This document shows, piece by piece, positions 6,990 through 59,306 of a DNA stretch of 64,000 nt. The DNA is from Branchiostoma floridae (lineage: Eukaryota > Chordata > Leptocardii > Amphioxiformes > Branchiostomatidae). Within the stretch, counting starts at the first letter, position 1; the number at the start of each line of letters is the position of its first letter. The translations under genes were made by a program, and so were the position numbers. A model generated the notes under the pieces. It was not told the DNA's origin, made no database searches, and saw nothing but the letters and a program-made list of their open reading frames with translations. The stretch is taken from positions 28,804,277 to 28,868,276 of the forward strand of contig NC_049982.1 of assembly GCF_000003815.2 (NCBI RefSeq), read 5' to 3'.

Positions 6990-7215
6990 CGCCGGGCGAG
7001 GCCTCTACCTGGAGACGGGTCAAAGTTCACTCATGCATGCTCTGGGTTATCCATCTGTGCGGGAAATGATAAAAAAACATAAGTCATAAGCTGAAAGAAA
7101 TGAGTATTTCAATACACTCAAAAATCAAGACTGAACACTGAAAGAAAAACATTGAAATGTGGCCTGGGTTAGAATCCCTGACAAGTCCCAATGTTGTGCC
7201 CTTGGGAAAGGTACA

Positions 7216-7607
7216 CAGGGTTCTACCCAGATGGTGGAATAAGGGAGGCCCTCCACTATACTCTCAGCCAGCTCCACTATACTATTTTTCAAATTTAGTT
7301 TGTTTCTTCCCTATTTTCTTTGTTAGTTTTGCTAAAATCAATGACAATTCACAGATTTTTGTGCCAAGTGGCATCACTTTTCCAGTCAGCATTGTCTGCA
7401 AAAACTTGTGAATGAGCAATGATCAAAACAATAGTCGTTTTGCCACTTTACAACAAAGGAATCACAACAATATATTATACTTGTAGTATTTGACACCCTC
7501 TGTCATAATTTGCAAAATGAACCCATTTTCATGAAAGCGCAGCGCGTTGGTGCGGGTTATTTTTGCCAGCCCCTCCACTATACTAAAAAATTCTGGGGAG
7601 AACCCTG
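7216..7607. mobile_element. MITE with CAGGGTTCT ends and 5-bp target duplication
   Basis: The ends are CAGGGTTCTACCCAGA and TCTGGGGAGAACCCTG. Direct repeats GTACA flank it exactly (7211-7215 and 7608-7612). A copy in opposite orientation lies at 25650-26037. The CAGGG terminus resembles hAT elements, but the duplication is 5 bp rather than the usual 8. Confidence 0.8.
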
Positions 7608-7963
7608 GTACATGTACCTGACACCTATGTCCTCACTTGACACCACATCTTGAACTCACCACACTTATCAAAAAGAGAGTCCTTCTTGGTGTGAGCAGAT
7701 CAAACCTTACAGTTACAGTCCAATGTTAGAAAGCTTGTACCTACTATACTGTACAAAACTGGGCTTTTATGCCAAAATATAGTTAATTAGTTTTGCAAAA
7801 AAATAGGAAGTTAGTTATAAAAGGAACAGGATGTAATTTATTTGTTTGATAAACCAGTCATGCTTTCTTTTATGATACGTTGACATAAGCCTTGTTCAAA
7901 TGACGTATGGGTAAATACAATAGACTGGTAAAAATGACACGGCTCCAAACAAGAAGTTTGGAG

Positions 7964-8185
7964 TACCGTAAATTTATTTAGTTCTTTCTAGTAGTCGTTT
8001 CTTTTTGCAGTAGAGGAAAAAAAATGATGTTTATCTTTTATCTTAAATCCACAGTAAAAACAATTCTGTAACACATAATGCAGACATTCAAGGGAGACAT
8101 ACAATTGTTGCATGTGAATGAATTTGCTGTAGGACATCTCGCCGTAAAATAACATCTACCACAAAAGTTTTTAGGATTTACAGTA
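7964..8185. mobile_element. AT-rich MITE with TACYGTAAAT / ATTTACAGTA ends
   Basis: It starts TACCGTAAATTTATTTAG and ends GGATTTACAGTA. The same end type occurs at 16911-17111 and 23997-24215. The interior is diverged. Confidence 0.45.
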
Positions 8186-8838
8186 TTTAGCGAGAGATTG
8201 TGACTTCTAGAGGCTACTTTTGCTTCCCAGAAGAACCGAACCTTCCGGTTCATAATTTGTATAAATCATGATTGACAGATGGCAGCTATTGTTCGCATAT
8301 CAAAATTTAGGTGACAGTACATTTACTCCTTTGTATAAATGGATGCTATACACATTTCGTACTAATAACCAGTATGAAAAGTTTGTAATATAGAAGCATA
8401 ATTCTGTAAACAATACACAGTTTAAATTCTTATCTGTAGCTGTGATAGCCCGCTATGAAGTGATTCTTGAGCTTTTTGTTTTCTGTTCTGTTTGGATAAA
8501 CATTGACCCAAATTTGTCCCAGATTATCTATTGCATTACACAGCACAAAATATGCTAATTAACAGGCAAACAAAATTTATGCACGCAAGAACTTTCATAA
8601 AAAGGGCTGAAATTCGATCCAGGGCGGTCAAGGTGGAAACTTGACAAGTCGAATCCCGGAAGCCAGAAGAAAAACTACCACGTAGCCAGATGGATTTTAA
8701 CGTCAAAAATCACACTAAAACGACACCCATGCCGCCTGAAACTTCGCCAAATGGCTCATTTCACTCTCTTAAATCAACGCGTATCTCCAAAATATGATAA
8801 ATCTGGAGAAATATTGATTATTTCCTTGAAATTCTTAC
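8186..8838. other. Intergenic or intronic DNA, no gene seen
   Basis: If the 5' exon at 8839 belongs to the acidic gene, this is its first intron. No coding exon recognised. Confidence 0.4.
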
Positions 8839-8960
8839 CTTTGTTCGGCCAAAACAGCACCGAGTACCACCAGGTGACTTGTCAAGATGGCGGAAATTAG
8901 TTTTCTATCACGTGATGAGGATGGGCCAATGAAAAACCCTTACATCACTACAACCTTTGA
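8839..8960 (-). promoter_or_regulatory. Possible promoter and 5' noncoding exon of the minus-strand acidic gene
   Basis: On the minus strand an AACAAAG|GTAAGAATTT donor ends at 8839, with no long open frame upstream. Just above it is a CACGTG E-box (8911-8916). A ctccag acceptor near 7008, immediately before the ATG at 6989, would receive it. This is inferred from splice signals only. Confidence 0.35.
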
Positions 8961-9122
8961 CCTCTAGGCTTCAGCTCGTCTACGTCATTTTGCCGCGAAA
9001 ACACGGCATGAGGTTTAAAAAAAATGCTAAATTATTTCATAAAAGTATGCATGTGATTGTTTCTTTGTGGATAGTTATGACCTTAATTTCTTTCCTACTT
9101 TCACTGTCATGTGAATCCGACA

Positions 9123-9679
9123 TAAGGCCACAGCAATTAAAGTTTATGGATGACATCAGCACGCATTAATTTTCGCCTGATTTCAGAAAAAAAAAAAAAA
9201 ATTTCTTCTGCAGGGCAGGGATAGTCAACATTACGATTAAGTACCAAAATGAGCAAATCATGTGTTGTGTTGTACGTAGCCTAATGATTGTGCTTGTAGA
9301 AGTGACACTTGCGAGGTACCCAGGACTGTAGTAGAAATAAACTTATTTGATAGTTGTAAAAGTGACACTATTAAATATGGATGCCATGAGTGTGGTTACC
9401 AACTTTGTTGGTGGTGCCAGTCTACCACAGTAGTGTGACTTTTATCACACTAGTAACGTTAACATGTCTAGAATACAGGAATGAATACCTTGTTAGCTCT
9501 GATACCATGTTTTGTCCCTTTAATTCTTGTAACAACAGTCATCACAACTTAATGGTGCATATTTTCTAAAATGTAGCCATCTTGTTTTTTTTTACCCATC
9601 TTCTTTTTGTTTCTCCCTATCGCACTATTTTTGCAGTCTGCACAGCATGTCATCCATAAAACTTACTTGCTGTGGCCTA
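9123..9679. mobile_element. MITE family A copy between the two divergent genes
   Basis: The terminal inverted repeats are TAAGGCCACAGCAATTAAAG and AACTTACTTGCTGTGGCCTA. The interior matches the copies at 43310 and 35000, including CTTGTAGAAGTGACACT, AGGAATGAATACCTTGTTAG and GTCATCACAACTT. It lies between the start of the acidic gene and the start of the Tudor gene. Confidence 0.8.
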
Positions 9680-9949
9680 ACCCTTTTTTCAAGTGTTTGA
9701 AATATTTTCAAAAAAATGGGGGTGTTTTGAAATTTCGTACAGATAATGTTTCTTCAACTCATGTGTAAAAGCAGATACAATACGCTAGAAATATAATATA
9801 TTATAAATATTGATGTTTCAGAACGTAAATCATATATAATTATTGTTAATTATTTTTTTATACTTTAGTATTATTCATTTATGAATCCAATCCTCCCTTC
9901 TTTATGAGTGGATGGATCCAAAGTTCGTGGAAAGCCACGAAAGTTTGCG

Positions 9950-10050
9950 ACTTTTCCCGAGTCGGTCATTCCCAAGGGAGAGCGGACGACGCGCCAAGTT
10001 TTCGTGTGTATCTCTCGTCTGCAAGTCTGTCAACCGTTTGAGGGGAAAAC
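9950..10050 (+). promoter_or_regulatory. Promoter/5' UTR of the Tudor gene with Myb-like and E2F-like motifs
   Basis: Just upstream of the ATG at 10051 are CAACCGTTTG (10031-10040), which contains the palindromic Myb core AACCGTT, and GCGCCAAG (about 9991), the reverse complement of an E2F-like CTTGGCGC. No clear TATA box is seen. In vertebrates A-MYB activates piRNA-pathway genes including Tudor proteins. Motif presence is observed; function is inferred. Confidence 0.4.
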
Positions 10051-13000
10051 ATGAGGTAAGTTAAGTATTTTGAGAGAAATAAGAAAAGTCTAAGTCCATG
10101 ACGAGTCTTTAGAATGCCGAGAATGAATGTTTAGGCATTGAAAACAACAGAGAAACGTGTGTTTTTGAAACGGCATGGCCTTGCTGGTGTGAATTTATTT
10201 CCAACATCTGTGGTGGCCGCCATTTTTCACAAAATGTCGCCTGACAAAGTTTATCTTTTAGCCTGTGAAGCTTTGCTATTCTACGCGATTAAAATTGTGG
10301 ACTTGTGATTATAACATTGCATCTGTGCAAATAACGAAGAATATAACGGTCTTCTTTGCTCTTTTTAATCCAAGGCAAACTAAACGTCCCCAGAGACTTG
10401 ATCTGATTGAAGAACACCTATGCATATATTTGCATATGAATAAGCTTGTTGTTCATCTCTTGATTCGTTATCTTTTAGACTGTGACATACAAGTAATTTA
10501 TCAGAAATGAACTTTATTACTATAACTATATTCATCGATTAGGGGGGAAATGAGCTGTAATGTTATATGACATTGGCAACAAACAAGTGGCCACTGTATC
10601 AAAATATCAAAGTTTTATTTTATCAGGCCAGCCATACGCATTTCAATGCAAAATAATGAAAATTGAGGAATTGTGAGAATATGTCAGGAAACAGAATAAT
10701 TGTAAAATTGTCATCTTCCAATGTCCAAACGCTTACATATGATCTCTGTATCTGTACCTATATAGCTGGTATAAGTATAACCGCCTTTCAGCGTAACACG
10801 TCAGCTTTGCAGGCACGCGGTGCGGCAGCAGCTGGTTACATTGCACTCAACGACCCGTCAAACCTAGACCCGTCACACCTAACTTTTGCACATCTATCCG
10901 CAAGCATTCTTAAAACTATCCAGAGAAGATGCCCCTACTGTACTTGGTCATAAGAAGTTCTACTCTACAATAGTTCTGGGAAAGTAGGAAGTTTTTAAAC
11001 ACATCATTCCTAGGCTGGTACACTGGTACTTGAAGGCATGACTGTTTCTTGTTCTACAGTACCAGTGGAAAAGATTTGGATGGTCTTGGGACCTGGAACC
11101 CCATGGAGGAAGACTTCAAGTCACCAACCTTCAACAGCTATGACCGCGGGCCTGGTGCAAACTTCCCTAACGGGCTGTCCCCTGCCTCCAGGAGCAGGTA
11201 CCAAATGTGGTGCTATTGCACAAATATACTTACTGTAAATTCATCTATTTTTTGCTAGTGTTAGCAGGGGAAAAGGACGTTTCCACAGTGTTTTAAGTAC
11301 AGTTAAAAGTATTCTGTTGCACAGTTTTCATGATTTCCCTAAAAGGAAAATGTGAAAATAGAACCACACAAATATATGTCAAGATTTGCAGTGTCTCAAG
11401 TAGAGGCCGCATCAAAACGACAGGCCTGAAATTTTGTAAACTAGATGTCTCATGTGTAGCTATGAGATACACATTTTGGGCAATTGTACCTGTATTTAAA
11501 CCATTGTATATTTCACAGAAAATCTTGATAAGAAATGGGGAATTGTTGTAGGAAGGAGAGGAAAATGAATTTGTTGCAGTTTTGCACAGTCCATTGTACC
11601 TACTTGCTTCTCAGTTTATGTTGATTTTGTACTTATTTAAGTTGTAGATTTTCCCGGCATTCATGCAAAAAATGTTTTTGTGAAGACTTTTTCTTTGTTA
11701 AAAAGTATTCCATGTTCCTATTTCAGTGGAGATGGAGAGAGACCCCAGTCCGACAAAATCACCCTGTATGTAAGTGGCATCCCACTGGAAATGGAAGCGG
11801 TAAGTATCTTTTAGATTTTATTCATATTCATTATGAGATGATGGGACAAAAAGCAATATTGCTCATCAAAGCCCTATCTTCTTGCATACATACAAAGGTA
11901 AGATGAACACGAGAGCAGTTAGTGTTATGTGTTGACAAGATAGCAGTTAGTTACTAGCTATCTGTGCCACAAGACTATTATTTAGAAGCTGTATTCAAGA
12001 TAATCTAAAAATAAGCATGTCATAATCTCAGTTGTAAACATTCCAGATCATAACAAATCACTCCACACGCTATCTTATCTCAAGTGTCATAAAATGGTTT
12101 TATCTTTTACAATTACATGGTGTTTATTTCTTGCTTTAGGATGGGGTGAAGAACTTTTTCAGCCAAGTAGCTATACCATTGTCTGTCGACATAAAGAAGC
12201 CTCAAGACTACTCCTATGGCACTACATATGGGTAAGTTCCTAAAGTTTCTCATCTTGTGCGGATATGCCTGTACCCAGTACCGGCAAAGGAAAGTGTATC
12301 TTTAACAATTGTGTTTTCCAGACAACACAAATTGATGACCTTTATTGACGTGTCAGTCATCGTAGGAAAAGTTGTCTTTTCCATGCAATATCCTTGGAAA
12401 AATGCCCCCCCCCCCAAGCTGTCTCGTAATTATGTATTTCACAAAAACTATTGTTTCATCAGAAAATGTCAACTAAGACTGTCTGTCAGTGGCAAGGTAC
12501 CCCTTTCTACCAGAAACATTGAATTGTCTAGGAAACAATGTTAAGAGAAGTGCCAGCTCTTTTGTGAGAGAATGTCAGACCAGCCCTCAGTTGTAACAAA
12601 CTCTGAACTGAGACCTCAAATGTAGCAAGAGGCAGGGTAAAGCGGGGTGTGTGTGTGGCTGGTCACCTCATATATAGATTTGAGTAAGATTACTAAGAAT
12701 AAACAGCAGCAGCAGTTTGTTTGGGCAGACCACATGAAGGTAAACGCTATGAATTTGCTTGCAAATGCTGTCTAATTTCTCTCTCTTCCATATCATATAC
12801 GGCCTCCTTCGGTCAATATTGACCATGGTAAAATCCTAATTGATATCCGCCCTACAGCGTCGACTGTGGCTAAACAGTCCTATACGAGAATGACAGTCTT
12901 TGCCACATAGGGCACATCTGTAAGCTGACTCAGGTCTGTTGCAGAGTTCTTTTCGCAGGATCCGCTTTTCTTCTGCAATATCTTTCATATCAAACATATG

Positions 13001-16000
13001 TTAAAGTTAGTCTATGTACTGACGTATTTGTTTCCCCAGTTTTGTGGAGATGGCTTCAGTGCGTGATGCCGATGCTGTGATGAGGGAGTTTGATCAAAGA
13101 AAATGCGGCAAGTTCACTCTGAAGATCCGACCAGCCAGGCCCAAAGCTCCAAGAGAGGTGTGTTGGGCACTTTGTGATGGACATTGCATTTCCTGCTAGA
13201 CTTTCCAAGTGTACTTAGTACGAATTTATTGCTTTTGTTGAATAAAGTCTTTGAATGGTATGATGACGATGATGATGTTATTTACCAATTCAAAATATGA
13301 ATTTTTATGTTTTTTATGCAACATTTCAGGAGTCATATACACAGAGACGAGAGCCACTTCAAAAGGTTCAACTGTATGCAACACAAGGGCAGTCCCAAAG
13401 GTAAAAAAAAAGCTGTTGCTTTTGCAATGTTTATTTGGTCTAACAATAGAATATGTGAATACTATACCGGAAAAGTAGTGGAAGATTAAAAGCTCTTTAT
13501 TTGTCATTGTCCACATTACAATACAAAAAGAGACAAACTATTTAAACTAAGTCAACAAAATTTTTCCCGGCTTTGCACGTCATCCTTAACTACAAAACAC
13601 AATCTTCCTGTTAGCACCACATTTTGCATTATGATAAAATTAATGCATTATTCAGTGCTTTCTATACAGACTTAAACTTTGTGTAGAACTCGATAGTACA
13701 TTGCATCACAAAGGAAAGGAACTTTTCCTATGGTATTTTCAAAGCATATGGAACAATCAAAACATAAAGAAAGGTCACTGTCATCCAGCAACAGCAGCTA
13801 AGATTTGAGTGGCATTTGCATATGATCCTTATGAGTCAGTGACTTTGACATGTTGAGTCAGTTTTTGACGACGCCTCAGGGGAGTCGTCAAGTGGTATAT
13901 ATTGCATTCAGTCTGCAAAAATTCTAGGAATTGCACAGGCATTTTTCCAAGAATGCTAGTACTTCACAGTATGCTGGATATGCAAGCCCCCCCCCCCCAA
14001 ATCTGTTCCAGATGTATCTCTGGCATGCAATGGTGGAATGTAGGTCATAGTCCGGGGATAGTACATTTCTGTTGGCTGTAGGTTTATGTTACAGGTGGGC
14101 TAGTATATTGTGCCCAGGGATAGTACGACAGGGAAGTTCCAGTCTATTTCTGATTTGACCTGTATTGTTGTACCCTCAATCGTCGTCATGGCAATAATAC
14201 ATTTTTATTGCCAGTCTTGTTCTTGTTAGATGTACTGGTGTTGGATTGTCTGCCAGTTCATTCTAGTGACTCTGAAGAAGAGTAATTGATGTCAATTAAA
14301 ACATCTGGAAGTAAATCTCTATTTTTTACTAACCTGTACTAACCTTATGTCTAACCTTCTTTAGCATAATAAAAAAAAAATGATAATTTGCACCCCAGTA
14401 GGAACTACAGCTCCTCTGACAGTGGGAAAGAGTCCCGACCCCAGCCGGCCATACGGACGATAGAGAATCGTTACGGCAAGAGTTCGCCTTCGGCGCCAGA
14501 CAGAGACCCCCAGGGGAGGCGCCGCAGCAGTGGCGGGGACTCCCCACCCCCTCTCGACGACAACAGGCCTCCCTCTCCTATAAAACGTACCTCCAGTACC
14601 AGCAGCATACCTGCAACACTAGACATGTCTGGACAAGCTTCGTTTACCAACAAGTACAGCCAGTTCAGAGGCAGCATGGCAGGACAGGACAGAAGTCCCC
14701 ACCCCCAGCCTGCAGTACCTTATGATTCAGATAGAGGGCGTTCTCCAAACAGATTCACTGGGCAACAGGGTGTTGGAGGTGGAGTCAGGCGTAGCGTCTC
14801 CCAGAGCAACATGCGCGACAGGCAGCCAAGTGGTGAGTTTAATCGTGGAAGCTATAACGATCGAGGGTATGGCCGAGACAGCCAGGTTTCGCCATCACAG
14901 CGAGCAGTTGAATTTGAACGAGGGGGCCAGCGTACGGGAGTTCGGACCAGTCCAAGTCTGTCTGAGATGAGGGGAGGGGATAGGACGGAAGCAAGTCCTA
15001 CTCCGCAGGGATCGTACACGAATGGGATGCATGAAGACATTAGAGACGCCACGCAGATGGGTGCATCATCCAAGCCTAGTACACCACAGGTATAAATTTT
15101 CATGTGTGTGTGGTTTGTGTGTGTGTGTGTGTGTGGACAGTATAACTCGAGAAACTGTGGATGGATCCTTGTTATATTTGATAGGTGGATAGGAGTCAAG
15201 AAAACACATGTCAAGTTAGATAACATCCTATAGGCTTTCTACAGCACTGCAGTGGAAGTTATTGCGTGTTTGAGACAAACTATGGTCATGTTTTTGAGTG
15301 GTAGAAAAGTTCTTGGGGCAGAGAGTAATTGCTGTCGTGTTTAGGCCCTCTAGCAGCATTCTTTTAAACTGCAGGGGCCCATTTCTTCCAGACTTTAATG
15401 TTGAACAGTTGATATACATGTACTAAAAAGATTTCTGTTTGACTCTCGTATTCCAGCCTACTGGTTCACCCCAGAAGACCACAGAACGTCCCTGTGTACT
15501 GTGTGGTCAGCTGGGGAAGTCCAAGTGCAGCACATGCAAGACACCATACTGCAGTAGGGACTGTCAGCGCAAACACTGGCCTGAACACAAGAACCACTGC
15601 AGGCCTGTAGGAAAGAGGTAGGGGGCACTACTTTTGATAGGGAGACTAGAGCTGTTGTTGAATTGTTGCAAGGCCTAACAAGAAACTGAAGATCTCATGC
15701 CTGAAGTTTTTGTGGATTTGGAAATGCCATAGCCCCAGACATCACATGTGTTAGTGATCCTCCCCTTCCCATCCTCTCTAAGCCAATCCCTCTTAACCAA
15801 TCCCTCACACAAGGGGTCATTCATTCAACTCATTGGGTACAGCTGACTAGCTGTCTTTGGTTCTACCACACTACCTTTACGAAGGGGGGTATAATACTGC
15901 AGTACCTGAAAATACTGCTAGATGGCCCAAAATGGCCATGTTTCTTGGGGACCTCAAAAACTTATCCAAATATAGTCAAACCAAGGAGATTCCCTTTTCA

Positions 16001-19000
16001 ACCTCCTTGGTCAAACTTTTTAAAGAAGTTTCTCTGGTCTCTTCCAAAACACTAGTTTTGATAATTTTCAAAGACATATCCGAAGCCCTTTCTAAGTTCT
16101 ACTGTCAACGATCTTTTATGTTGAGAACAATTGTAGACTAAGCAGTTTTGTAGCTGTTTTTTTTGCTGAAATCATTTCTCAAGGTTTGTTTGCATTCTTT
16201 AAGTTGAGTGTTGTGTTGAAGTGCGACAACTCCCTCCCCCCTATTAGAGTAGAGCAATGGTTGGACCCAGGAAGGGTCAGGAGGGAGCCAAGGACACAGT
16301 ATCAGTTGCGTCTGGAAAAAGTTTCTGAGGAGTGAGCTGTCTGGTCACTTAAGGTGAAATAAAGTGTGGAGATCTTGTGTGTTGGACTAATCCTAACTAT
16401 GGACCCTTCCTACATTGAGCAAGTTTTTGCTTTCTTCCACAGTGACGACGTTCCCACTGGGTTTGAGAACTTTGACGTCTCGGCCGGGGAAGACGTGAAA
16501 GAAAAGATGGACACCCTGATGGCCCTCTCAGGCATACAGATGGTGAGTTGACATTTTATCCTTCTTTCTGTACAAGGTTGATTTTCCTAGGCCTAACATA
16601 CTGCATAGGAAAACAAATGCAAGTATTTCCTGAAATAGAAACTCTATTCTCTCTATGATGAGTCTATCTGCTGTAAGCTTCACTGTTGTGTTATCCTTCT
16701 TTTGCCAGCCTTCTGCAACTCCACCACAAGAGCACCGTGCACAACCCAGCCCCTCTCCACCGCAAGCTGCCCCTCCCCCTGAACTTGCAGTGGCCAACTT
16801 GGAACGGTCCCAACTACCCAAGGGAGAAACTGTCAAGGCAAGTTTCTCTATTTGTTGTAAAAATTCATGTAAGATTAAAGCTTAGAGAAACTATGAGTAT
16901 GATGTTATAGTACTGTAAGTTCATTTATTTTCATGGGAACATGATTTTATGGGATTACGTGGAAAGAAGGTTTTCATGGTGTTTTATGTTGTTGATTGAA
17001 ACAATGCTGTATCGTGGTCCCGTAATACATAAAAAATACAAATTCCCAGTGTCATGAACATGTAATGGAGAGGTCATTGTGAAAGTAAAACCACATGCTT
17101 AGATTGACAGTATTTTAAAAAGTTTTTCATTGTAAAAGTAAAACCACATGCTGAGATTGACATCACCTCAATTGAAAAATTTTGTTTTTATACATTTTGT
17201 CAGGAAAAAAATGTAGTCCTCTTTGAGGTTGGAAACATCATTGAAAGATGGCCCAATCCTGAAATCAAGTACAGTGAAACTTGTTTAAGAAGACCACCCT
17301 GGGGACCAGTGCAAAGTGGTCGTTTTAGACACGTGGTCTTCTTGTGCAAAGAAAGAAAAATTGACAAGATAGGACAGACACAATGATTTCAAAGTTAATG
17401 GTCTTTAAAATAGTTTAATTCCACGAACCTGTACATTTGCACATGAGAAACATTATCACTGTTGAACTGTCTTCCTGTATGATTCATATAGTATTGTTAT
17501 ACCAACTGATGTAAAATTGAAAAGTTTCCAAAATTTAGGGCTTTTCTTTCAAATTTTCGTAGCTTTTTGTAGCCGGAGCAGCGTCATTTTCCCCGCCGGC
17601 ATTGTCTGTCAAAAACTTGTGAATAGGCGACACCGTCAAGACAATGGTCATTTACATATTGCTTACAAAAATATCGCTGTTTTCGGTGGAGAACCCGACG
17701 CCCCACGAGCGTTTTAAAATGCGATTTTCATGTTAGCAACGCTAATTGCCTATCTTTACTTTGTGAATCACAGCCAACGGGCCAGAAATAAGTTGGGGAG
17801 CTTACCGCCATAACAAAAAGCATGTGCCCGACAAGACGGGAACCTTCTTTCAAATCGGCAGCACGACAGAAAAATAAATGGTTCATTTCCACGATGTTAC
17901 CCATGAAAATAATGTGTGTGAGTTTGTTTCACTTCTGGCGAGGGTCTTAAAGTCTCAACGCTGCCTAGAAGGTGAAAATTTGCCGAGAAAAACAAGTTTA
18001 ACCCCACCGACGCTTCTAAACATGACTCATGTTGACAAATGGACGCTTCACTAGAAGCAAGGGGAGCAGTTTCTCAAGAAGACACACAGACACCTTTTAT
18101 TCTCTAATAAGATGTGTTATAAAGTCATAAAGATATTTTATATATGTTATCTTTACTTCAAACAAGTTTTATTAAAATAAATTTGCATTTTGTAGGGTTT
18201 AAATGTAGAGTACATAACAACGCACGCAACATTTTTACCTACACTTCAGTGGACTTTCCCAATGACACCGTTTGACCTCTTGGGCGCCATGTTTGATTTT
18301 GGCTCGGCGCGAATAACAGAACCCAAACACACGAGTTTGCCGTAATTTCCCGGCAGTTATGATAAAAAATCGATGTTGTTATACCCTTGAAAATGACGCA
18401 GTGGTTTCGGTCACACTTTAGTTGCCAAAACATAAGCCAATTTTAGCGATATTTCTCGCGAGTTATCATCAAATATCGACAGTTGCTACAGTCTTGAAAA
18501 TGACGCAGTCGTTTCGGCAAGTTTTCTTCGCCAAAACACAAGCCGATTTTAGCGGATTTGCCACCAGATATCATCAAAAATCGAGGCCACTACACACTTG
18601 AAAATGACGTGGTCGTCTTCGGCAACATTTCGATCGCGGGCGGACCGGATTCGGGGTGGTCGCGGTCACAGAAGACAAGTGGTCGCTTTGGCCACGTTGC
18701 TTAAAGGACAGCATCAGAAAATTTTCAATTCTTTATTTTCCAGTATTTTACTCATTAAAAAGTTGATGTACGTCAATTTTTACATTGATCCGCCTAATAT
18801 GACCCTGTAGACACGTTTGAACTTCGCGCTCTCCTCCTCTCCCCGCCGCGCTGGCCGATGACGTAATGGCCTCGTTCTGATCGTCTGAGATTGTATGACG
18901 TCACGGATCCAAAACTTCTAGCCAGCCATTTTGCTCGGTGAACCTCGGTCCTCTCAGCGGTAAATAATCACCCCGCCATTCTGGAGTTCAGTTTGTTGTC

Positions 19001-22000
19001 ATTGAAAATTACTTTCGTGGACCTGTAAGTCGCATTGTGAGCTGTCTACGAAGCCATAGTCCCCGGGAGACTGAACATGAATAAGCTTGCCTGCGTGTGA
19101 ACCGCGCGGCGATGGAACGAAATCAAAACAATGGTGGTGGGGGAGGTTCACGCACCGTGTCATTCTGGACTATTACAAGAGCGAGTTCGAGTCAGTTCTT
19201 ACCTTCTCCTTTCCGGACAGCACAGCGATAATTACACGTAAGCTTCCACGAATTTTGGTTGAATTCACAATTGTCCAACTGGCAGGGACATTAAAAAAAA
19301 TCATTCTCTGACAACATACACTTGATCGCTACATATCGAACGATCCCCCTTCCGCGCCGAAACATACATACAGCATTGTTGTTTTTACATACAACACAGG
19401 CCGGCATTGTGAATGGCGCGAAATGTCGGCTTCGTTTCAGAGTCCGTGATTTGTTTTGAATGAACCCCCAGCAATCTCCGCCAAAGCTACATGATTGAAA
19501 AACCGACCAGTCCAGATAATTTACCCGAGAAACAGAAAATAAAGTGAGAGGCGAGGCGTAACTCGCACGATCTGTACAAGTTGCGGTGCTATCTGTTCCG
19601 GCGCGAAAAGGGGGTTGTTCGATATGTAGCGATCAAGGGTATGTTGTCAGTAGAACAAACGAGGTCTACAACTGTGAATTCAACCAAAATTCGTGGAAGC
19701 TTACGTGTAATTATCACTGTGCTGTTCGGAAAGGAGAAGGTAAGAACTGACCCGAACTCGCTCTTGTAATAGTCCAGAATGGCACGGTGCGTGAACCTCC
19801 CCCAAAACCATTGTTTTGATTTCGTCCCGTCGCCGCGCGGTTCACCCGCTGCAGACAAGCTAATTCATGTTCAGTCTCCCGGGGACTATGGCTTCGTAGA
19901 CAGCTCACAACGCGACTTACAGGTCCACGAAGTTAATTGTCAACAACAACGGACTGGCTTCCAGAATGGCGGTGTGATTTCCCGCCGAAGGGACCGAGGT
20001 TCACCGAGCAAAATGGCTGGCATGGCCAGAAGTTTCAATTCTGATTTGTGACGTCAGCGCGCAGGCAATCAGAACGAGGCCATTACGTCATCGGCCAGCG
20101 CGGCGGGAGAGGGGAGGAGAGCGCGAAGTTCAAACGTGTCTACAGGGTTATATTGGGCGGATTAATGTAAAAATTGACGTAAATCAACTTTTTAATGAGT
20201 AAACTACTGGAAAATAATGAATTGAAGATTTTCTGATGCTTTCCTTTAATGCTTGTGTCAATGGGGAGGAAAATCGGGACCAGCCAAAAGCGGTCGTAAT
20301 AGGCCGATGGTCGTCTTATGGACGTGGTCGCTTATACAAGTTTCACTGTATAGTTATACCACTTTTACAACTTTTAAGTAACTATCTTTTCACTCCAGGT
20401 GTCGGTGACTGAAGTAGTTAGTCCGGAGAACATCTCTGTCCAGATTATACATCATGAGACCATACTAGAGCTGTCCCAACTCATGGTGAACATGGCACAG
20501 ACATATGAGGGGACAAATAACGAGGGAACCAATGCCTACCATCCACAGGTATGTATTGCATTACCTAGTAACATCAAAAATCAAAACTGTAGCATGTCCA
20601 GACACAAAGTGTCACACACACACACAAACACACACACACACACACATACACACACACACAAACACACACACACATACACACTCACACACACACACACACA
20701 CATAGCCTTCTCCAAGGTAAGTAAACGTCAAGTTGTAATAAGCTATTTTGAAAAGTGTATAAAAGACTCAGGAATGTCAGGAGTTTGAACCCAGAAGCTA
20801 TGTAGATTATAGGCCAAACGAGAGCCAGTAACCAGTTATGAAGTGGCTAGGTCAGTAGGCACAAGATTGAGAAGTCATGGGTTCGATTTCTGGCCATTGT
20901 GACTAGAGGTTGTGTCATTTGAAAAGACTTAATAAACAACTTTCCTCATTCCACCAACACATGTATACTTCTGTCTCGGTTAGAAAGGTGATTGCATGAG
21001 TGGTTTGGGCTCTGCCTTCCAGTACCGTGCCCTCGTGGGACTACTTTTTATTTTACCTATTGGCCTAAAGTGTAGTGATGTATTGTTGTAGGCAGGAGAG
21101 TTGTGTGCTGCCAAGTTCAGCGATGGAGGATGGTACAGGGCCAGTGTGGATAGTGTTAACCCTGATGGCACCTTGGCTGTGACGTATGTGGACTTTGGAA
21201 ACAGCGAAAGCATCCCCGTGGCAAGGGTTCGGAAGTTGGAACCAAAAATGGCAAAGCTGCCATTACTGGTAAGGTTTCCACATGTTCTTAATGTAGGGTT
21301 GAAACAAGCACATTTTTTTTGTATCACAGTTGCTATTGTGATTACGCAATATACTTTCATAGTTATCAGAAAACTGTAAATATTTCAGAAACATGCATCA
21401 GTATGCTGTATACAGCATTTTACCCAATTTATTGTCCATTCCTTACCCTTGTAGGCCGTGAAGTGCAGCCTGCTAGTGTTGGCAGGCAAGGGAGGGAGTA
21501 CCTGGAACACAGAAGTGGTGAACTTCCTCAAAACTAACATTGTCAACAAGGAGTGCTCTGTGACCATGAAGGAGCAGCAAGATGGTACGCCTTTGGTGGA
21601 AATGGTGGAAACAGGCACAGGTAAGTGGGGTTTTTATATTGCCTTCCAAGTAAGAAATGATCTTGTATGATTTTTTAAAAATATCTACCTTAAGTTTACA
21701 GAGGAGAAACATATTGTTTTTGTTTTGTTTCTTCGACTGTTCCAAAGGAATATCTGGACCAGGCTGTCACCAATGTTGTTGTTAGTAGACACCCTATGGT
21801 GTTTGATTACATTATGTAGCAAGTGGTAGGATAGAGCTGGAGGGGCTGGTCACCAGATGTATGGATGTGTTTCAGTAAGATTAAACAGAGTATAAATGGT
21901 TAGGCTAGACTATATATCTGCTTGCAAATGTAGTCTTTCAGTTTTTTTCTAGTTGCATCTGACAGTTATTCTCAATTTGTTGTCTTTCTTTCAAGGAAAC

Positions 22001-25000
22001 TTTTCTTCAGAATTTTTAACCATCCATTGAAACAAAACATAAAGATTTTCTTTATTTTCTGGATGTTTTACAAAAACTTCTTTTTACATACATTTGAAAA
22101 AAATGTAATTTGTTTTATTTTTCCAACAAAGGCAAGTCTGTGGCAGACATGGTTTTGGAGTCGGGACTCTTTGTTCCTTGCCAGAAGCCACCACCACCCC
22201 CACAAGACCCTCAGGAAGACTTTGGGTTTCTCGTAACCCACATTGACAGCCCCGCATCCTTTTACGGCCAGGTAAAGGGAAAGACTTAAATCAAATGTTT
22301 CATACCATAAGCATAGACAGTAGGATTTCATTATAGTACAATTTGTAAGATATTCTGCAAGGGCATTTTATTTCCTTGCTTTAGAAGTTGAACAATTGGA
22401 ACCATTGATTATCTACTTTTTGGCTACACTCTAAGGGTGGATCCATTTTTGTAGTTGTGAAAATATATGCTACATTTGTCAATGCAAATGCAACTGTACT
22501 TCAGGTTGGCCTTGGTGCAGACATGAAGGAGGTGGCAGTTGACCTTGCGAAAAAGATGGAGCTGATTGCTGGACTTCCCGAAGCAATTTCTCAGAACAAG
22601 CAGGAGCCATACATGCCTCAGGTTAGTCTAGAAGTGTTCCTGCTTTCATGCCTTGTGTGCGTCTCCTAAAAGGCAACTCTTTCATGAATTAGGCTCAACC
22701 ATTGGGTTTAATGGGGAAAATGCTGACATTTTATGACATATGCGTAAATTTGGAAATTTGCAAAAAACAATATCTGTATTTCATGGCATAAACATGTAAT
22801 TTTGCAAGTCTAAAAAGACAGATCCCAACAATGATTAGCCTGAAAATTTATAAGATAACACTGACAATTTTATAAGTTTACACTCGAGTAATACAGGAAG
22901 AAGATCTTGTCTGTCTCTGTTTGGGGTATGTATTGTTACCGCAGCACTGGCATCTAGGAGTGCTTAGAGCACCACCTAGCAGGTTTGATGCTTACTGCAG
23001 GACTCTTCACCCTTTCTCTGTCAGGTGGGGGAGTTGTGCTGTGCACTGTGGGAGATGGACGGCATGTGGTACCGCGCAGAGGTCATAGAGGTCGTGTCCA
23101 ACAGCCAGCTGAAGGTGTTCTTTCTGGATTATGGCAACACCGAGACTGTGACCGAGGCTAACACCCGCCCGATCCCAGAAAGTTTCACCCAGTGCCCTGC
23201 CCTGGCACTGCACTGCAAGTTAGCAGGTATGTGTATGGAAAGCTCTCTTGTATTTGTTGCGATACCTCGGGTTGGCCGAATGGTTCACTATTTTTTATTT
23301 CATCACAAGTTAGGTCTTTTCATGACTCCCACTCATGAAGAAATTTAACATGGTCATGGATAAGTTAGAACAATACAATATCAGTATCACAACAGACCAT
23401 CATTCTAAATACAGAAATTGTTCACAAATTGAAACCTCTGCAAGTTGACGCTCCAAATCATTTAGTGTAACTGTTAGGGACTTACTTTAATTATTTGCAC
23501 CTCATTCAAATTTTTCCCAAGACAAAAAAATTGCAATTGTTTACCAGTCTTCTTGTACTGCCATTTATCTCTAACATCACATGTAACATTTATTTAAATC
23601 TACAGGTGTTTCACCTGTAAATAGCGACAGGTGGTCGCAGCAGGCGACTAAATGCTTCAAAGACCTAACCAAGGACAAGCTGCTCATGGGAATGCCCATG
23701 GCCAGGGAGGGAGATGTGCTATCTGTAGAGCTGAAGGACTTTGCTACAGGTAGGAGCCACTGACAAGAATTTCTAATCTCCAAACAGACCCTACAATGGC
23801 ATAAGACAGCATCAAACTGGCCAAGGAGTGTAGTCAGCCAAGAGGTGTACATTTGCCGGTAGCGAAACACACTCCCAAGCCGGCTTCACTTCTCTGCCAG
23901 CTTTTGATATTGTCCTATGATACCATGGGATCCGCTTGGAGATTAAACAATGTCATCACTGTAGATATTACATTTTACATGCTGTAGTCTGTTGAATACT
24001 GTAAATTCAATTACTTTTGCAGTGGTTTTTTTCTTGCCAGTATTGGGGGAAAGTTTTTTTTTTTACTGTTTTAAATTGCTGTTGGAGCAAAATCAGTATT
24101 ATAGCAGTAGTACATGGAAAATTCTTATTAGAGGTGTTATAAATTCTCAGTTGGGAGGTCAGCGAGGGAAAACCACAAAATCTGAACCGTTGTGAAAATT
24201 TCAAGATTTACAGTAGCAATCCTGGCTCAGGACAGATTTGTACCATGGACGAGTGATTCCGATAAGTACGATCTGTTAGTGGTCTTTTTGTTTCGTAGTT
24301 TGTCAACAAAAGCTCCACAAGTTGCTTTTAACTCATCACCTTGTATTTGACTCTTTTCCTTACATGCAGGTGCAAAGGTGTCAGAAGAGATGGTACAAGC
24401 AGGTGCAGCTGTCAGCTCTGCCAGACCACCTGCACAATCACCTGCAGCGACACCTGCAGCAATGCCAGTGCAGCCATCGTTATTCACACCTGGTAAGCCA
24501 GCAGGTGACTCTAGCCGGTCGCCATCCGAGCAGCTGCAGCGTAGGTCTCCCACTCCACCTGTACAGCTGTCAAGCTCCCCCTCTCCACAGTCACATGAAC
24601 TGCAGCCAAGACCCCAGAGCAGACCTAGTAGGTTTATTCAACACTTTATCAGAATGATGTGTTTGAAAATGTAACATATATATCATATCTTTCATCAAAG
24701 TCAATATTTCAAGCCATATTAAAACAGTCCTGTCAGATTTTACGTTAGGAAAAAAAATGTTTTGTTTCCTGTTTCCCTTCCTACCCTAGAAAAACCTGCC
24801 AACCCTAGACTTTTTTGGGGATGGGCAGTGGGGTCACATAGCTTATAGTTAGAATTTTTATTCAGCCTGCTTCCTTTTGTCTAGTATTGAAGTAATAACA
24901 CTGCTTGTCCTATCTAATAAACGATGAATGTATCCACAGATTTGTAACCATTATGCATAAAATCAAAGTTTGACATTGAAAATATAAGTATACTCATGCA

Positions 25001-28000
25001 TTTCAGTTTTACTTTATTAAATCTGTTGTATAACTAGAGTTTAGGCTAAAAAAAAGAAGCTTTAAAAAAGATAATCCCTACAACGGACCCTAATTAGTAA
25101 TTTGTTTTCAGACTGAAACAGGAAACGCAACATTTTTTTCCCTAGGCCTTAGTCAATATGGCAAGGCGCATTAAACAAGTCTTGTCAGATTTTACATTAA
25201 TCAAAAGACCCCCTTCTAAACAATGGTTTTATCATGAAACCAACAACCACATTTTGCAGTCCCAATGGAGCATTCACACTGCAATCAACCAAAATTTATG
25301 ACAATTGCACCATACACAAGGCTGAAATTATTTTATTTTTATTTATCAGTCTTGTAGGCTGGTCCCTTCAGTTGTCAACAACTGATTTCCAAGGGAGCCC
25401 TGCAACAAATCAGTCAACATAAACTTAACAATTTATATAAAATAAAACACGAATAATCAAATATAGGGAAAACAGCTTATGTAGTAGACTCAAAATCAAA
25501 CACTACCAACTCAAAATGATTCATCTAAATCAGTGAAGCATATTAATTAATATTGTCCAAACTACAAATTGGACCAGTAGAAATTTTAACATAAGAAAAC
25601 CTCTTGGGGTAAGACAACATGGGAGTTTCATACTAGTGCATAACTATGACAGGGTTCTCCCCAGAATTTTTTAGCATAGTGGAGGGGCTGGCAAATATAA
25701 CCCGCACCAACGCGCTGCACTTTCATGAAAATGGGTTCATTTGGCAATGACAGGGGGTGTCAAATACTACAAGTATAATATATTGTTGTGATTCCTTTGT
25801 TGTGAAGTGGCAAAACGACTATTGTTTTGATCATTGCTCATTCACAAGTTTTTGCAGACAATGCTGACTGGAAAAGTGATGCCACTTGGCACAAAAATCT
25901 GTGAATTGTCATTAATTTTGGCAAAACTAACAAAGAAAATAGGGAAGAAACACACTAAATTTGAAAAATAGTATAGTGGAGCTGGCTGAGAGTATAGTAG
26001 AGGGCCTCCCTTATTCCACTCTCTGGGGAGAACCCTGTATGAGCACCTCTTTTAGATATGTTTCTTTTAACCACAGTGTGTATTGTGCAAACGTTATTTA
26101 TGTTTTTTCCAGCCAAGAGATGCAGTCGTCTCAGCCACTGTCCCTCACCAACCACTTTTTATCAGTATGATTGGTAATTAAGACCAGGTTTGACTGCAGT
26201 TTACATTAAGGTTGAATAGTAAGCAGTGACATTTCTTCATTCTTTTTCTCAGGCAGTGCAAATAAGGGCCGTATGAAGACGGTGACTCGTGTGCAGCCCC
26301 CCGTATCAGGCAGGTTTGATGTGCTGTTGAAGTGTGTGAAGTCTCCTGGACTCTTCTACTGCCAGCTGACTGAACCCTCAGGTGAGACCCAACACTACTG
26401 TGAAACTGCCATGTGATACCAAATAGATGCATTAGTGCATCCTCGCCTTTCTTGCACACCTACATGTAAGTGATAACGTGTTACACTGTGAAGGGCTTAA
26501 TTGGCCTCCTACCTTAGAGCTTGTGGCCGTACACCTCTTGTTAGAAAGAACCATTTCCTTTTCCTGAGTCACCAATAGGAACTCAGGATTCTGACTCACT
26601 TTGAAAATCCACCCAATAGGAGCTCAGGATTCTTAATTACTATGAAAATCCATCCAATAGGAACTCAGGATTCTCAATCACTATGAAAATCCATCCAATA
26701 GGAGCTCAGCATTCTTGATCACTATGAAAATCCATCCAATAGGAGCTCAGGATTCTTGATCACTATGAAAATCCATCCAATAGGAGCTCAGGATTCTTGA
26801 TCACTATGAAAATCCATCCAATAGGAGCTTGAGATTCTCAATCATGGCATTCATCACCATGGTAACAGACAGTTCTCAGTCTGACAATAATTGGTCTGTG
26901 TTAACACATTATGCATAAATAAAAAAAATAGAATGTTTCAAAAGTCTCATGACTTCGAGATTCGAGCCCATAACACTGAGGAAGCCACACGGCGAAACAT
27001 TGTTGTGTGTCGGTTCGAATAAAGTTCCTAAACGGGGAACATGCGGCTCCAGTGTCTTTTCTGAAGATGTGGCGTAAGTGTGAACGGTTGGCTGAGGTCT
27101 CCTTCTCCACATATATCATGACTTCGAGATGTTCGCCATTAAGGTTCTAGGGACCTGACCAGTTGAAGGCTGCTAGAACCATGATTAAGTCAGGCAAACC
27201 AAGTGACAAATATGACCAGCAAAGGTTAAGATAAAGATGGATTAGCCAAACATTGGCGATGCCTTAAGATTCTGTATCATTGTTTTCAGGTGTGCAACAG
27301 CTGCAGGTGTTGTTGAATGACATTACTCACCACTGCCAAGCCCAGCCCATGGACCCGGCATACATCCCAGACATAGGGGAAATCTGCTGTGTAAATTCTC
27401 CTAATGGTAGGGAGGACAAATTTGCAACTGTATTTGTCTAGTACACATGTATCTCAATGAACTGCATCAAAATGTAATAGGAAGTTGTGCCAACCTAATG
27501 AATTTGTGACAAGTTTCTCTTCCAGTCACACTGGTAGTTGCTGTGTGTAAAGCCTAGATGAGCAGGTTATTTATAATCACAGTGCTGCCACTGAATTGAA
27601 AAGCAATGTACAATAATTGAAAATACCCTGAGAAGAGACTTGCACTGATAAAAGGATGTTCATTTATATTATCCTTTGTACAACAAGGGGAGATAAAGTT
27701 TTCTTTTCTTAAAAGTTTTTCCCCGGACGAGACAGTCGCTCGAGACTTGAGAGTGCACAGCCACAAATTTAGTGTGCTTCCATATAACCCCTTAGCTTTT
27801 AATTTAGGGATTGACTTTGAAGGTTTACTGATCCATAGGAGAAGAGAATTCAGCAACATTTAGCAAATGGTAAGATAAGGCCATACCAATTTAATTTCTT
27901 GGCTCTCGGATTTTTTCAGAAAAAAAGTTGAAGCGACAGGGCGAAAAAAAAAAAAAAAATTGCAACAAGCCTGGATTCAGGTCCAGAGGTTCGGGTTGGA

Positions 28001-29576
28001 AATTGCGGATCTGAAACCATGGTATATGTGTGGCAGACTACTTATCCATTTAAAATTACATGAAAAATTTGCATGTAGGCATACAGGCAAGTCCAGTACT
28101 TGTTTTTAGAAGTTCTGTTAAACTGAGCCGAAGTTTATCCAGCAACTTGTATTACTGGTACCTCATGGTCCTGGCAAATTCAATTTTTTATTTTTTTTTG
28201 AAATTGGGAAAAATAGAAGCGGCGATTCCGAGAACAAACAAACTAAATTGGTATGGCCTAAGTATAAAGTGTTTTTTTTCTCTGTAGGTAGGACCTGGCT
28301 GAGGGCTCAGGTCCAGGAGCACCGTTTGTCCAACAAAGTCCAGATTGAGTGTGTGGACATCGGCAAGCAGGTCCAAGTGAGCCAGACCAGGCTGCGGCCG
28401 GCACTCCCCCAGCACACTGACCTGCCTCTGCAGGTCTTCAAGGCCAGTCTGGCCGGAGTGGTCCCCGTCCATGGCGGGGAGTGGTCCAAGAACTCTGCAG
28501 ATTTCCTGTCCAAGTATGTGGACAGTCAGAGACTCACAGCAGAAGTTGTAGCACAAGAAGGTACTAGACTTCTTTGTCTTTACCTCCAGGGCAGGGGAAC
28601 TGTTTCTGTCTCTGTTGGCATGTGTTGATAGTTACTGATGTTGTGAGCAGATATGTTGATTTTGGACCCCTAATGGTGTGTTCAGGTACTGCAGGATTAT
28701 AGACCAACACCCCCATCTTGAAAGTAATGCATTGCAGCTCATTATATACCCATAGCTGTTCCCTGTCAATAGCTAGCATTTTTTTAGATACAAGGTCTTG
28801 TTTGTGTTCTGCATAAATATTCACTTAGATCCTGGTCTTTTCTTTTGTATAAAGTGCCTGCCACACATATCAATAGCATAGTATGAGGGGGGTGGCATAG
28901 TTGGAGGGGGGTGGCAAGGTCTTAGGTTGGATTTACCTATTGGTCTTCAAAAGTTTCGCCAGTCAACTATAAATTTTTTAAAAACCTAAGTAGGGAAGAT
29001 CATATTATACTTGGATACAGTCAATGGAATGGAGTCGAGCTAGGATTGGACGAATTTCCTATGACAACACCAACACACATGGAGACATGAGAAAGTACAA
29101 TTATCATTTCAAGCTGACATCACATAGTAAAAGACCAATTTTGATGACTGTCCCTTTTTCTGCAAAACTAAGCCAACAACTGTTTTTCAGGCGATCTTTA
29201 TTTCCTACACTTGTGGGATCGTACGAGTGGGCAGGAGGTCAGCCTGTCCCAGATGCTGTCCGAGGAGGGACTGGCACACCTGGAGCCACTGACCCCCGAG
29301 GGGAGCCCCCCTCCCTCTCGTAAGCGCAAGCCGCCACCCATCCATCCCTCTCCAACACAGAACGGGCACATCCGTACCCCAAGCCCGATACAGGTCATCC
29401 AGAATGGTGGTGTAGAGAGAGCCAGCAGCCTCAAAGCTCCCCCTGCAGCAGCTGTTGGTACTGCAAGCGTGGAAAACATCTTGCAGGAGATGAAGGAGAT
29501 AATGGCTCAACAGGCACAGGAGATATCAGAGCTTCGCAGGATGGTGCAACAGCTGCTACATGCACAAACAAGATAA
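10051..29576 (+). CDS. TDRD1-like: RRM-MYND-multi-Tudor protein, TDRD1/Vreteno-like (22 exons, complete)
   Basis: Likely a germline scaffold that binds dimethyl-arginine tails of Piwi proteins in nuage. Coding exons: 10051-10055, 11060-11197, 11727-11799, 12140-12231, 13040-13157, 13330-13400, 14399-15089, 15457-15617, 16443-16542, 16709-16837, 20399-20548, 21092-21268, 21455-21620, 22132-22271, 22505-22621, 23025-23226, 23606-23749, 24370-24627, 26253-26381, 27290-27406, 28288-28560, 29191-29576. All phases agree, giving 1278 residues. RRM: about 62-140 (RNP2 LYVSGI, RNP1 YGFVEM). A Ser/Arg/Pro-rich linker follows. MYND finger: 409-444 (CVLC...CSTC...CSRDC...HKNHC). Tudor cores: about 578-625 (WYRA, VDFGN), 779-827 (WYRA, LDYGN) and 1050-1098 (VDIGK; cage residues lost). 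A C-terminal helix lies at about 1235-1278. The exon ending at 16837 uses a GC donor. The start is only ATGAG before the first intron. RRM plus MYND plus Tudor matches insect Vreteno; MYND plus several Tudors matches vertebrate TDRD1. Confidence 0.9.
12785..12975 (-). mobile_element. 3' end of a non-LTR (LINE) retroelement, degenerate
   Basis: On the minus strand this reads RKELCNRPESAYRCALCGKD then CHSRIGLFSHSRRC. That CxxC...C-x-SRIGL-xSH-xRxC zinc finger is typical of the C-terminus of endonuclease/reverse-transcriptase polyproteins of LINEs. It is followed by a short non-coding tail (TGGTCAATATTGACCGAAGG). It sits antisense in the intron between Tudor exons 4 and 5 and is 5' truncated. 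Confidence 0.6.
16911..17111. mobile_element. AT-rich MITE with TACTGTAAG / GACAGTA ends
   Basis: It runs from TACTGTAAGTTCATTTATTT to AGATTGACAGTA and includes GGTTTTCATGGTG and GTGAAAGTAAAACCACATGC segments. It lies in the large Tudor intron. Confidence 0.45.
17270..20350. mobile_element. 3.08-kb element with terminal repeats and a very long internal inverted repeat
   Basis: The ends are TACAGTGAAACTTGTTTAAG (left) and the complement of TACAGTGAAACTTGTATAAG (right). Inside, about 18700-19365 pairs with about 19595-20245 in inverted orientation, at roughly 90% by eye, around a loop of about 230 bp. Matching landmarks include AAACGTGTCTACAGGG and its complement, CCGCGCGGCGA and its complement, and GATCGCTACATATCGAAC and its complement. 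No transposase ORF is seen, so it is non-autonomous. It occupies most of the GC-AG intron of the Tudor gene and would form a long hairpin in the pre-mRNA. Confidence 0.75.
20612..20702. repeat. (CA)n microsatellite
   Basis: About 90 bp of CA dinucleotides with CAAA and CATA interruptions, in the intron after Tudor exon 11. Confidence 0.95.
23775..23944. mobile_element. Hairpin MITE family F (TCTCCAAACAGACC ends)
   Basis: The left end is AATCTCCAAACAGACCCTAC; the right end is GGGATCCGCTTGGAGATT. Inner GCATCAAACTGGC / GCCAGCTTTTGAT are also inverted. A cleaner copy is at 50184-50340. It lies in the intron after Tudor exon 17. Confidence 0.5.
23997..24215. mobile_element. AT-rich MITE with TACTGTAAATT / GATTTACAGTA ends
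   Basis: It starts TACTGTAAATTCAATTAC and ends AAATTTCAAGATTTACAGTA. It has the same end type as the copies at 7964 and 16911, and is intronic. Confidence 0.5.
24744..25152. mobile_element. MITE family E copy
   Basis: The ends are TTAGGAAAAAAAATGTTTTG and CATTTTTTTCCCTAGGCCTT, with inner TTTCCTGTTTCCC / CTGAAACAGGAAAC. The interior is clearly collinear with 5403-5777 (ATTCAGCCTGCTTCC, CTTGTCCTATCTAAT). Confidence 0.7.
25650..26037. mobile_element. MITE with CAGGGTTCT ends and 5-bp target duplication (second copy)
   Basis: It is the reverse complement of 7216-7607 along nearly its whole length. It is flanked by TATGA direct repeats at 25645-25649 and 26038-26042. It lies in the intron before Tudor exon 19. 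Confidence 0.8.
26572..26843. repeat. 41-bp minisatellite, about 7 units
   Basis: The unit starts CCAATAGGAGCTCAGGATTC and ends CACTATGAAAATCCAT. The central units are almost identical and the outer units more diverged. It is intronic in the Tudor gene. Confidence 0.9.
26962..27115 (+). mobile_element. 154-bp retroelement insertion with 15-bp target duplication and hammerhead-like core
   Basis: The insert is flanked by identical TCATGACTTCGAGAT (26947-26961 and 27116-27130). It contains CTGAGGA, a short GCC/GGC hairpin, GAAAC and then GTC. The segments flanking this core, ATTCGAGCC and GGTTCGAAT, pair at 8 of 9 positions. After an AATAAAG, the stretch AAACGGGGAACATGCGGCTC is homologous to the minus-strand copy near 57690. 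It is probably a short, possibly Penelope-like or ribozyme-bearing, non-autonomous element. Confidence 0.5.
27876..28260. mobile_element. MITE family B copy just upstream of a Tudor exon
   Basis: The terminal repeats are TAAGGCCATACCAATTTAAT and AACTAAATTGGTATGGCCTA. Its right end lies 27 bp before the exon starting at 28288, within the likely branch-point and polypyrimidine region. Confidence 0.75.
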
Positions 29577-58475: not shown

Positions 58476-59256
58476 TTACCCGTGCATGTTGCGAAAGGGC
58501 CGCCTGACACGTCCTGGAAAAATGATAAGGAATAATAGGAGTGAGATGTGGAGTAATGCATATTTTGACATGGTTTGTGGCATGAGATCTGATGATCCAA
58601 CGTGCCTATTTTTTTAGTAAGGTCACTATGAAATAAAGTATCTATCTATAAAGCGTCAACTGTTTAGCATTATGAAGTGTCATGTTTACTAGACAGAAGG
58701 GTTTGTGGAGATGGTACGATTATAAAAAGTACCTGGAACAGCCTGGCATAGGAAGCTCATCCGAAGGTTGCATTCGATGTCTGCCCACTTGCCGTGCAAG
58801 TAACGAACGCAATCTTGGTTGTTATGGTTGTTTGGTTGTCCCAGTTTCCAGGAGTTGTACGTCCCAATTACAGAACCGTCCACCCACTTAAAGCTTCCCT
58901 CTTTCTGCTGATCGTGCAGGCCGATCCAGAAGTGCTGATGTAGGCTGGCTCTCACGGACTTGTACAAGGAGATCAGGAAGGCGTTGGTCTTTGCGTCTCG
59001 GGGCATGGCGAGGGTGCCGCCATATTGACGACAGGTCGCAAGGGCATCCTTGAAGGTCTTAGGTGTGCTGAAGGCCTTGTAGCAGATTTGACGGAACACT
59101 TCGTAATCTTTAGGACAAGATGCTGGAAAAAATGAGGATGGACGTAGGGATAGACATTGGTAATGTTGATATTAAAAATGTTCCAGAATTCCTTCATAAA
59201 TAAATAAATCATTACATTTAACATATCTCCCCAATAGGTTATGTAGCTTCATTTCT

Positions 59257-59306
<50 letters not shown>

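Follow-up and report, generated by a model that had tools for sequence, protein, structure and literature searches.

Does a single gene of the amphioxus Branchiostoma floridae join an RRM, a MYND finger and three extended Tudor domains in one protein, and what would such a protein say about the ancestry of vertebrate TDRD1? We analyzed a stretch of 64,000 nucleotides (NC_049982.1, positions 28,804,277 to 28,868,276), hereafter the window, which lies within contig 4 of the genome that we searched (513,431,437 bases, 431 contigs). Our answer, held with good confidence, is that one amphioxus gene encodes a TDRD1/Vreteno-type piRNA scaffold that keeps the RRM-MYND-three-extended-Tudor layout, and that the RRM was most likely lost in vertebrate TDRD1.

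Gene model and domain content

Exons were located by their splice sites (GT/GC-AG), with the joins deduced from the DNA. Spliced together, 22 exons (10051-10055 to 29191-29576) gave 3837 nt, or 1278 codons and a stop codon, with no internal stop. Introns were GT-AG in 20 of the 21 cases, the exception being intron 10 with its GC donor. A sequence-only reading had proposed a phase-consistent protein of 1278 residues from 22 exons, and our re-derived splice sites returned the same product. The parts of the gene are as follows.

10051-10055 (+): coding part of exon 1 (ATG AG), donor GTAAGT; from splice sites, with a presumed start codon
11060-11197 (+): exon 2; from splice sites and codon usage
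11727-13157 (+): exons 3-5 (11727-11799, 12140-12231, 13040-13157), with RRM_1 at residues 61-130, genomic 11764-13121; from Pfam and an exon-wise self-match
13330-15089 (+): exons 6-7 (13330-13400, 14399-15089), a linker with many S, P, G, R and Q residues; from splice sites and codon usage
15457-15617 (+): exon 8, with the MYND finger at residues 409-444, genomic 15493-15600; from Pfam, the ligand pattern and a genome MYND search
16443-16837 (+): exons 9-10 (16443-16542, 16709-16837), GC donor after exon 10; from splice sites
20399-22271 (+): exons 11-14, extended Tudor 1; from Pfam, PDB match and cage pattern
22505-24627 (+): exons 15-18, extended Tudor 2 followed by a linker; from Pfam, PDB match and cage pattern
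about 22236 to about 24416 (+): span of extended Tudor 2, whose first residues lie in the end of exon 14; from domain matches
26253-29276 (+): exons 19-22 (part), extended Tudor 3; from Pfam, PDB match and cage positions
29463-29576 (+): end of exon 22, heptad-patterned C-terminus, then the stop codon; from a shuffle test

When codon usage was scored with each exon left out in turn, the frame of the model was the best of the three forward frames in all 21 testable exons, with a margin of at most 0.06 bits per codon for exons 2, 8 and 10. The start codon is the least certain part of the model, because exon 1 contributes just five coding bases.

All three domain types exceeded their Pfam cut-offs in this one protein, which bears out the RRM, MYND finger and three extended Tudors that had been read from the DNA. 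RRM_1, which is split across three exons, scored 26.5 bits, modestly over its cut-off of 20.7. The zf-MYND match scored 29.8 bits (cut-off 22.7) and lies N-terminal to all three TUDOR matches, which together scored 240.5 bits in three stretches. The cysteine/histidine pattern of the MYND finger was complete. In the RRM, the RNP2 sequence was LYVSGI (61-66) and the RNP1 sequence was TTYGFVEM (100-107); the usual first two residues of RNP1 are missing, and aromatic residues are kept at the usual contact places. Both readings assume the usual MYND ligand positions and RNP contact positions.

Aromatic cage residues were read by comparison with SND1 and TDRD1 stretches; which Tudor residues form the cage is likewise our assumption. 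The cage pattern was complete in Tudor 1 (F585, Y591, Y608, F611, N613) and in Tudor 2 (W785, Y792, F809, Y812, N814). In Tudor 3 it was degenerate, with none of the five cage residues at the corresponding positions (S1057, L1064, C1081, I1084, K1086). The C-terminal 35 or so residues showed a strong heptad pattern, the best 28-residue window starting at residue 1242, and none of 300 shuffles of the C-terminus reached its score. The OST-HTH (LOTUS) domain that marks Tdrd7 and Tdrd5 was not found in the protein by Pfam at E values up to 1.

One transcription unit or two

Two adjacent genes might have been wrongly joined in the model, one for a small RRM protein, made up of exons 1-5 or 1-6, and the other for a vertebrate-like TDRD1 with MYND and Tudors. 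This would agree with the AATAAA motifs at 13241 and 14368, past the RRM exons, and with the vertebrate TDRD1 described without an RRM in passages of PMC10711660. Against such a join, there are two in-phase routes from exon 5 to exon 8. Exons 6 and 7 together are 762 nt long, and the end of exon 5 and the start of exon 8 are both in phase 0; thus the RRM and the MYND finger share a frame whether exons 6 and 7 are both included or both skipped. In addition, the 691 nt of exon 7 form an open frame, for which the chance probability is about 1.5e-4. The three domain types are also reported within one protein for silkworm Vreteno-Long and Aedes Veneno in the parts of the literature covered.

CpG content bears on the same question. 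Methylated gene bodies of amphioxus lose CpG like those of other invertebrates. Passages of PMC8857923 and PMC11292947 describe this loss in invertebrates for methylated gene bodies. CpG o/e was 1.17 around exon 1, compared with 0.24-0.51 for segments of the gene body between 11060 and 17200.

9700-10300 (+): putative promoter / transcription start region; from CpG o/e

By segment, the values were 0.38 in the RRM block, 0.51 in the interval between RRM and MYND, 0.24 from MYND to exon 10, and 0.30-0.36 in the Tudor exons. Introns 2-9 were all at or below 0.48, with introns 6 and 7 at 0.32 and 0.30. The RRM-MYND interval thus has no promoter-like CpG level, and just one of 377 overlapping stretches of equal length outside the gene was as CpG-low. 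Its highest 400-base window reached 0.79, in exon 7 and on its donor side. Upstream of the gene, CpG o/e was fairly low at 7200-9600 (0.56) and high at 8601-9000 (1.02). Because of these exon 7 windows and variable upstream stretches, the CpG measure, an indirect one, supports one gene but is not decisive.

The phase of exons 5-8, the open exon 7 and the CpG depletion favor one gene, so the RRM, MYND and Tudor exons likely form one transcription unit, and a wrong join of two genes is very unlikely. A transcript that ends early, after the RRM, is possible, since each of introns 4, 5 and 6 contains an AATAAA motif (12698, 13241 and 14368).

A second possible break is intron 10, where CpG jumps and where the MYND/Tudor block could be parted into two genes. 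The intron is long (3.6 kb), has a CpG o/e of 1.11 and uses the non-standard GC donor. However, its CpG-rich part (about 17262 to 20249) consists of repeat DNA that also occurs many times in other places.

17262-20249 (no strand assigned): repeat DNA in intron 10, comprising 17262-18700 and a long inverted repeat, 18701-20249; from genome-wide copy number

The inverted repeat gave 124 alignments genome-wide, and at least 34 near-full-length copies including this one (40 of 151 candidates scored). Among these listed copies, 27 were 96-100% identical, which points to a recent repeat burst, and seven were 91-92% identical. The stretch directly before it, 17262-18700, had at least about twenty near-full-length copies at 88-98% identity (40 of 266 candidates scored). 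Being multi-copy repeat DNA, the CpG-rich stretch of intron 10 is not a gene boundary.

Domain matches also run across this intron. Exon 10 ends at residue 526, while the TUDOR match starts at residue 520 and the match to TDRD1 chain 4b9x at residue 522. Because both cross the join of exons 10 and 11, though by just 5-7 residues, extended Tudor 1 starts in the last residues of exon 10. A division of the gene at intron 10 is therefore hardly credible.

Relatives of the single domains

Tudor kinship was compared against solved structures only, with assumed source species for the matched PDB chains. The best match for each of Tudors 1, 2 and 3 was the TDRD1 chain 5m9n, with E values of 3.5e-18, 5.3e-18 and 4.3e-19, respectively. 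SND1 was near behind for Tudor 1 (65.7 bits, compared with 69.2 for TDRD1), as was fly Tudor for Tudor 2 (66.7, compared with 68.8). Since these scored nearly as high, Tudors 1 and 2 taken alone would be weak evidence of TDRD1 kinship. For Tudor 3 the top three PDB matches were all TDRD1, by a clear margin.

The RRM resembled generic RRMs in the PDB (HuC, ELAVL1; best E value 2.6e-6). The rest of the genome contained nothing closely related to it; the sole match outside the window had an E value of 0.97.

The two marks of the TDRD1/Vreteno family, a MYND finger N-terminal to the Tudors and TDRD1-like extended Tudors, are both present in the protein, and its kinship with TDRD1 and Vreteno is well supported.

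Tudor, MYND and RRM genes elsewhere in the genome

The genome search gave 42 Tudor matches (57 of 57 candidates scored) and at least 116 MYND matches (150 of 156 candidates scored). Among the 26 listed MYND matches on Tudor-bearing contigs, that of the window was alone near a Tudor (5.6 kb), the next being 721 kb off. Because no other listed MYND match lies near a Tudor, the window gene, with its RRM, appears to be the only one of TDRD1/Vreteno type in this animal. Large clusters of MYND-finger exons were seen on contig 7 (C7:15.5-21.6 Mb) and on contigs C198 and C199, some with identical score, which suggests a recent expansion. Elsewhere, thirteen Tudor matches lie within one open frame of 3013 residues (C2:24851765-24860185).

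One other locus combines Tudors with RRM-like sequence. This Tdrd7-type locus, at C2:9.91-9.92 Mb (L015/L016/L026), had a LOTUS match of 45.3 bits, two Tudors of 39 and 28.2 bits, and two RRM-like pieces, one of 21.0 bits, just over the cut-off, and one of 11.8 bits, under it. There was no MYND match near it among the listed genome matches. It is probably the Bf-Tdrd7 of PMC3735472, which is described in part of that paper as having LOTUS, RRM and two Tudors. The same part gives 15 Tudor gene models for B. floridae, and the window gene may be among the models drawn in its supplement. Like the window gene of this genome, Bf-Tdrd7 combines Tudors with an RRM; unlike it, Bf-Tdrd7 has a LOTUS domain, two Tudors, and partial RRMs that are no nearer to the window RRM than generic RRMs are.

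Searches for further RRMs at Tudor loci were of limited sensitivity, and a TDRD10-like gene could have escaped them. The Pfam RRM search of the genome gave at least 118 matches (150 of 263 candidates scored) but recovered neither the RRM of the window gene nor those of the Tdrd7-type locus. Among the 64 listed RRM matches on Tudor-bearing contigs, the nearest was 62 kb from a Tudor, in a search insensitive to split RRMs of the window type. A profile built from six PDB RRM stretches and run on 7007 frames (window and L001-L025) gave its best score, 15.2 bits (E value 0.0066), at the Tdrd7-type locus. The same profile gave exon 5 of the window gene just 6.8 bits; therefore, its failure to find an RRM at other Tudor loci means little.

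Read by eye, the RRMs of the window gene and the Tdrd7-type locus share intron places: one of phase 0 ahead of helix 1, and one of phase 2 close to RNP1, the latter about two codons apart. We did not use this as a sign of kinship, because a similar profile start (position 12) was seen for two RRM exon matches at C4:29.28 Mb and because the identity of the window RRM to the Tdrd7-type pieces (14/54 and 9/62) was no better than to HuC (22/82).

Comparison with known proteins

Passages of PMC10711660 describe silkworm (Bombyx mori) Vreteno-Long as a piRNA factor with an RRM, a MYND finger and three extended Tudors, and report that its RRM binds RNA. The amphioxus protein has the same domains in the same order, and it fits the insect Vreteno layout given there (N-terminal RRM, MYND, two or three extended Tudors). 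They differ in that the silkworm is a protostome and that two of the three Tudor cages of Vreteno-Long are described as not intact, compared with one of three in the amphioxus protein. A short isoform lacking the RRM is also described in silkworm.

Aedes Veneno, in the parts of PMC6411831 covered, likewise has an N-terminal RRM, a low-complexity stretch, a MYND finger and Tudors, but it has two Tudors and 785 residues. There, granules depend on MYND, Ago3 is bound by the Tudor part, and neither granules nor Ago3 binding requires the RRM.

Vertebrate TDRD1 (mouse, fish, human) shares the MYND finger and several extended Tudors, and is the best solved relative of all three Tudors of the amphioxus protein. 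In contrast to the RRM_1 and three Tudors found here, it is described with four extended Tudors and no RRM in passages of PMC10711660 and PMC9002060. Both papers, in these passages, treat Vreteno and Tdrd1 as homologues; PMC10711660 treats fish and mouse Tdrd1 as Vreteno homologues lacking an RRM, and asks how RNA reaches vertebrate Tdrd1 complexes without one. In flies, Vreteno is described in part of PMC9002060 as one of three Tdrd1 orthologues, of which the other two lack an RRM, and Veneno is described without an RRM in part of PMC10711660.

Vertebrate TDRD10 is similar in combining an RRM with a Tudor in a table of PMC12147562, which lists one Tudor and no MYND for it. The amphioxus protein departs from this layout in its MYND finger and three Tudors, a distinction drawn from the description of TDRD10 only.

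The RRM-MYND-three-Tudor combination is therefore not new; what is new is the branch of the tree on which this known layout is seen. No amphioxus RRM-MYND-Tudor protein was named in the titles or abstract starts of the literature surveyed, and among the papers listed in one of its searches none contained both MYND and Branchiostoma.

Ancestry and probable loss of the RRM

Insects have this layout in common with a non-vertebrate chordate, whereas the RRM is missing from fish and mouse Tdrd1. The simplest reading is therefore an ancestral RRM-MYND-Tudor protein with loss of the RRM towards vertebrate TDRD1. The RRM would be lost readily, since fly Veneno and two of the fly Tdrd1 orthologues are described without it in the passages cited above. 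An RRM on the protein of a non-vertebrate chordate suggests that the RRM-less state of vertebrates is a loss and not ancestral.

There might instead be one gene whose RRM was gained independently in the amphioxus lineage, in which case the likeness to Vreteno would be convergent and uninformative about the ancestor. RRMs are common domains, and that of the window gene shows no specific closeness to other RRMs; the RRM pieces of the Tdrd7-type gene indicate that combinations of RRM and Tudor arose repeatedly or are old. Nevertheless, the order of RRM, MYND and three extended Tudors is that described for silkworm Vreteno-Long, a second gain at the same place is an extra event, and the RRM-less fly orthologues suggest that loss is easy. 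We consider an independent gain unlikely, and prefer retention of the RRM in amphioxus with loss in vertebrate TDRD1.

It had also been proposed from the DNA that a protein holding all three domain types may represent the form from which TDRD1, TDRD10 and Vreteno split. The ancestral RRM-MYND-Tudor protein agrees with the shared layout of insects and amphioxus, but for the TDRD10 split we found no sequence link in the PDB or in the amphioxus genome. The descent of TDRD10 from such a form is not supported; it is weakened because the window RRM carries no specific signal and because a Tdrd7-type gene with RRM and Tudors is another possible source. That the window gene keeps the layout of the bilaterian ancestor, whose vertebrate descendant split into TDRD1 (MYND and Tudors) and TDRD10 (RRM and Tudor), seems quite improbable. 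If true, it would mean that vertebrates put the RNA-holding and PIWI-holding functions on two proteins.

Proposed working of the protein

The steps proposed here, including the germ-granule role, PIWI binding and piRNA biogenesis, are transferred from insect and vertebrate homologues. The MYND finger would direct the protein to germ granules. Tudors 1 and 2, whose aromatic cages are complete, would bind dimethylarginine on PIWI proteins, and Tudor 3, with its degenerate cage, may bind something unmethylated or be structural. The RRM might hold the RNA that is being processed into piRNA; its role is uncertain, because the RRM of Aedes Veneno was dispensable for granules and for Ago3 binding. 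The C-terminal coiled coil may pair molecules. Amphioxus offers an animal between insects and vertebrates for probing the role of the RRM.

Neighborhood of the gene

Synteny with vertebrate TDRD1 had no anchor among five open frames around the gene scanned with Pfam. One of these encodes a DDE_1 transposase, one a C-type lectin and one a repetitive coiled coil; the other two matched no family. A search with AbLIM_anchor, chosen to mark a human neighbor of TDRD1, gave no match and was uninformative by its own control. An open frame of 409 codons at 5778-7004 (-) had no Pfam family at E values up to 0.01. The transposase frame, at 2027-3610 (+), is open from stop to stop over 528 codons, with a DDE_1 domain of 40.1 bits. 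At 58692-60921 (-), a C-type lectin domain of 82.8 bits adjoins the repetitive coiled-coil frame of 506 residues.
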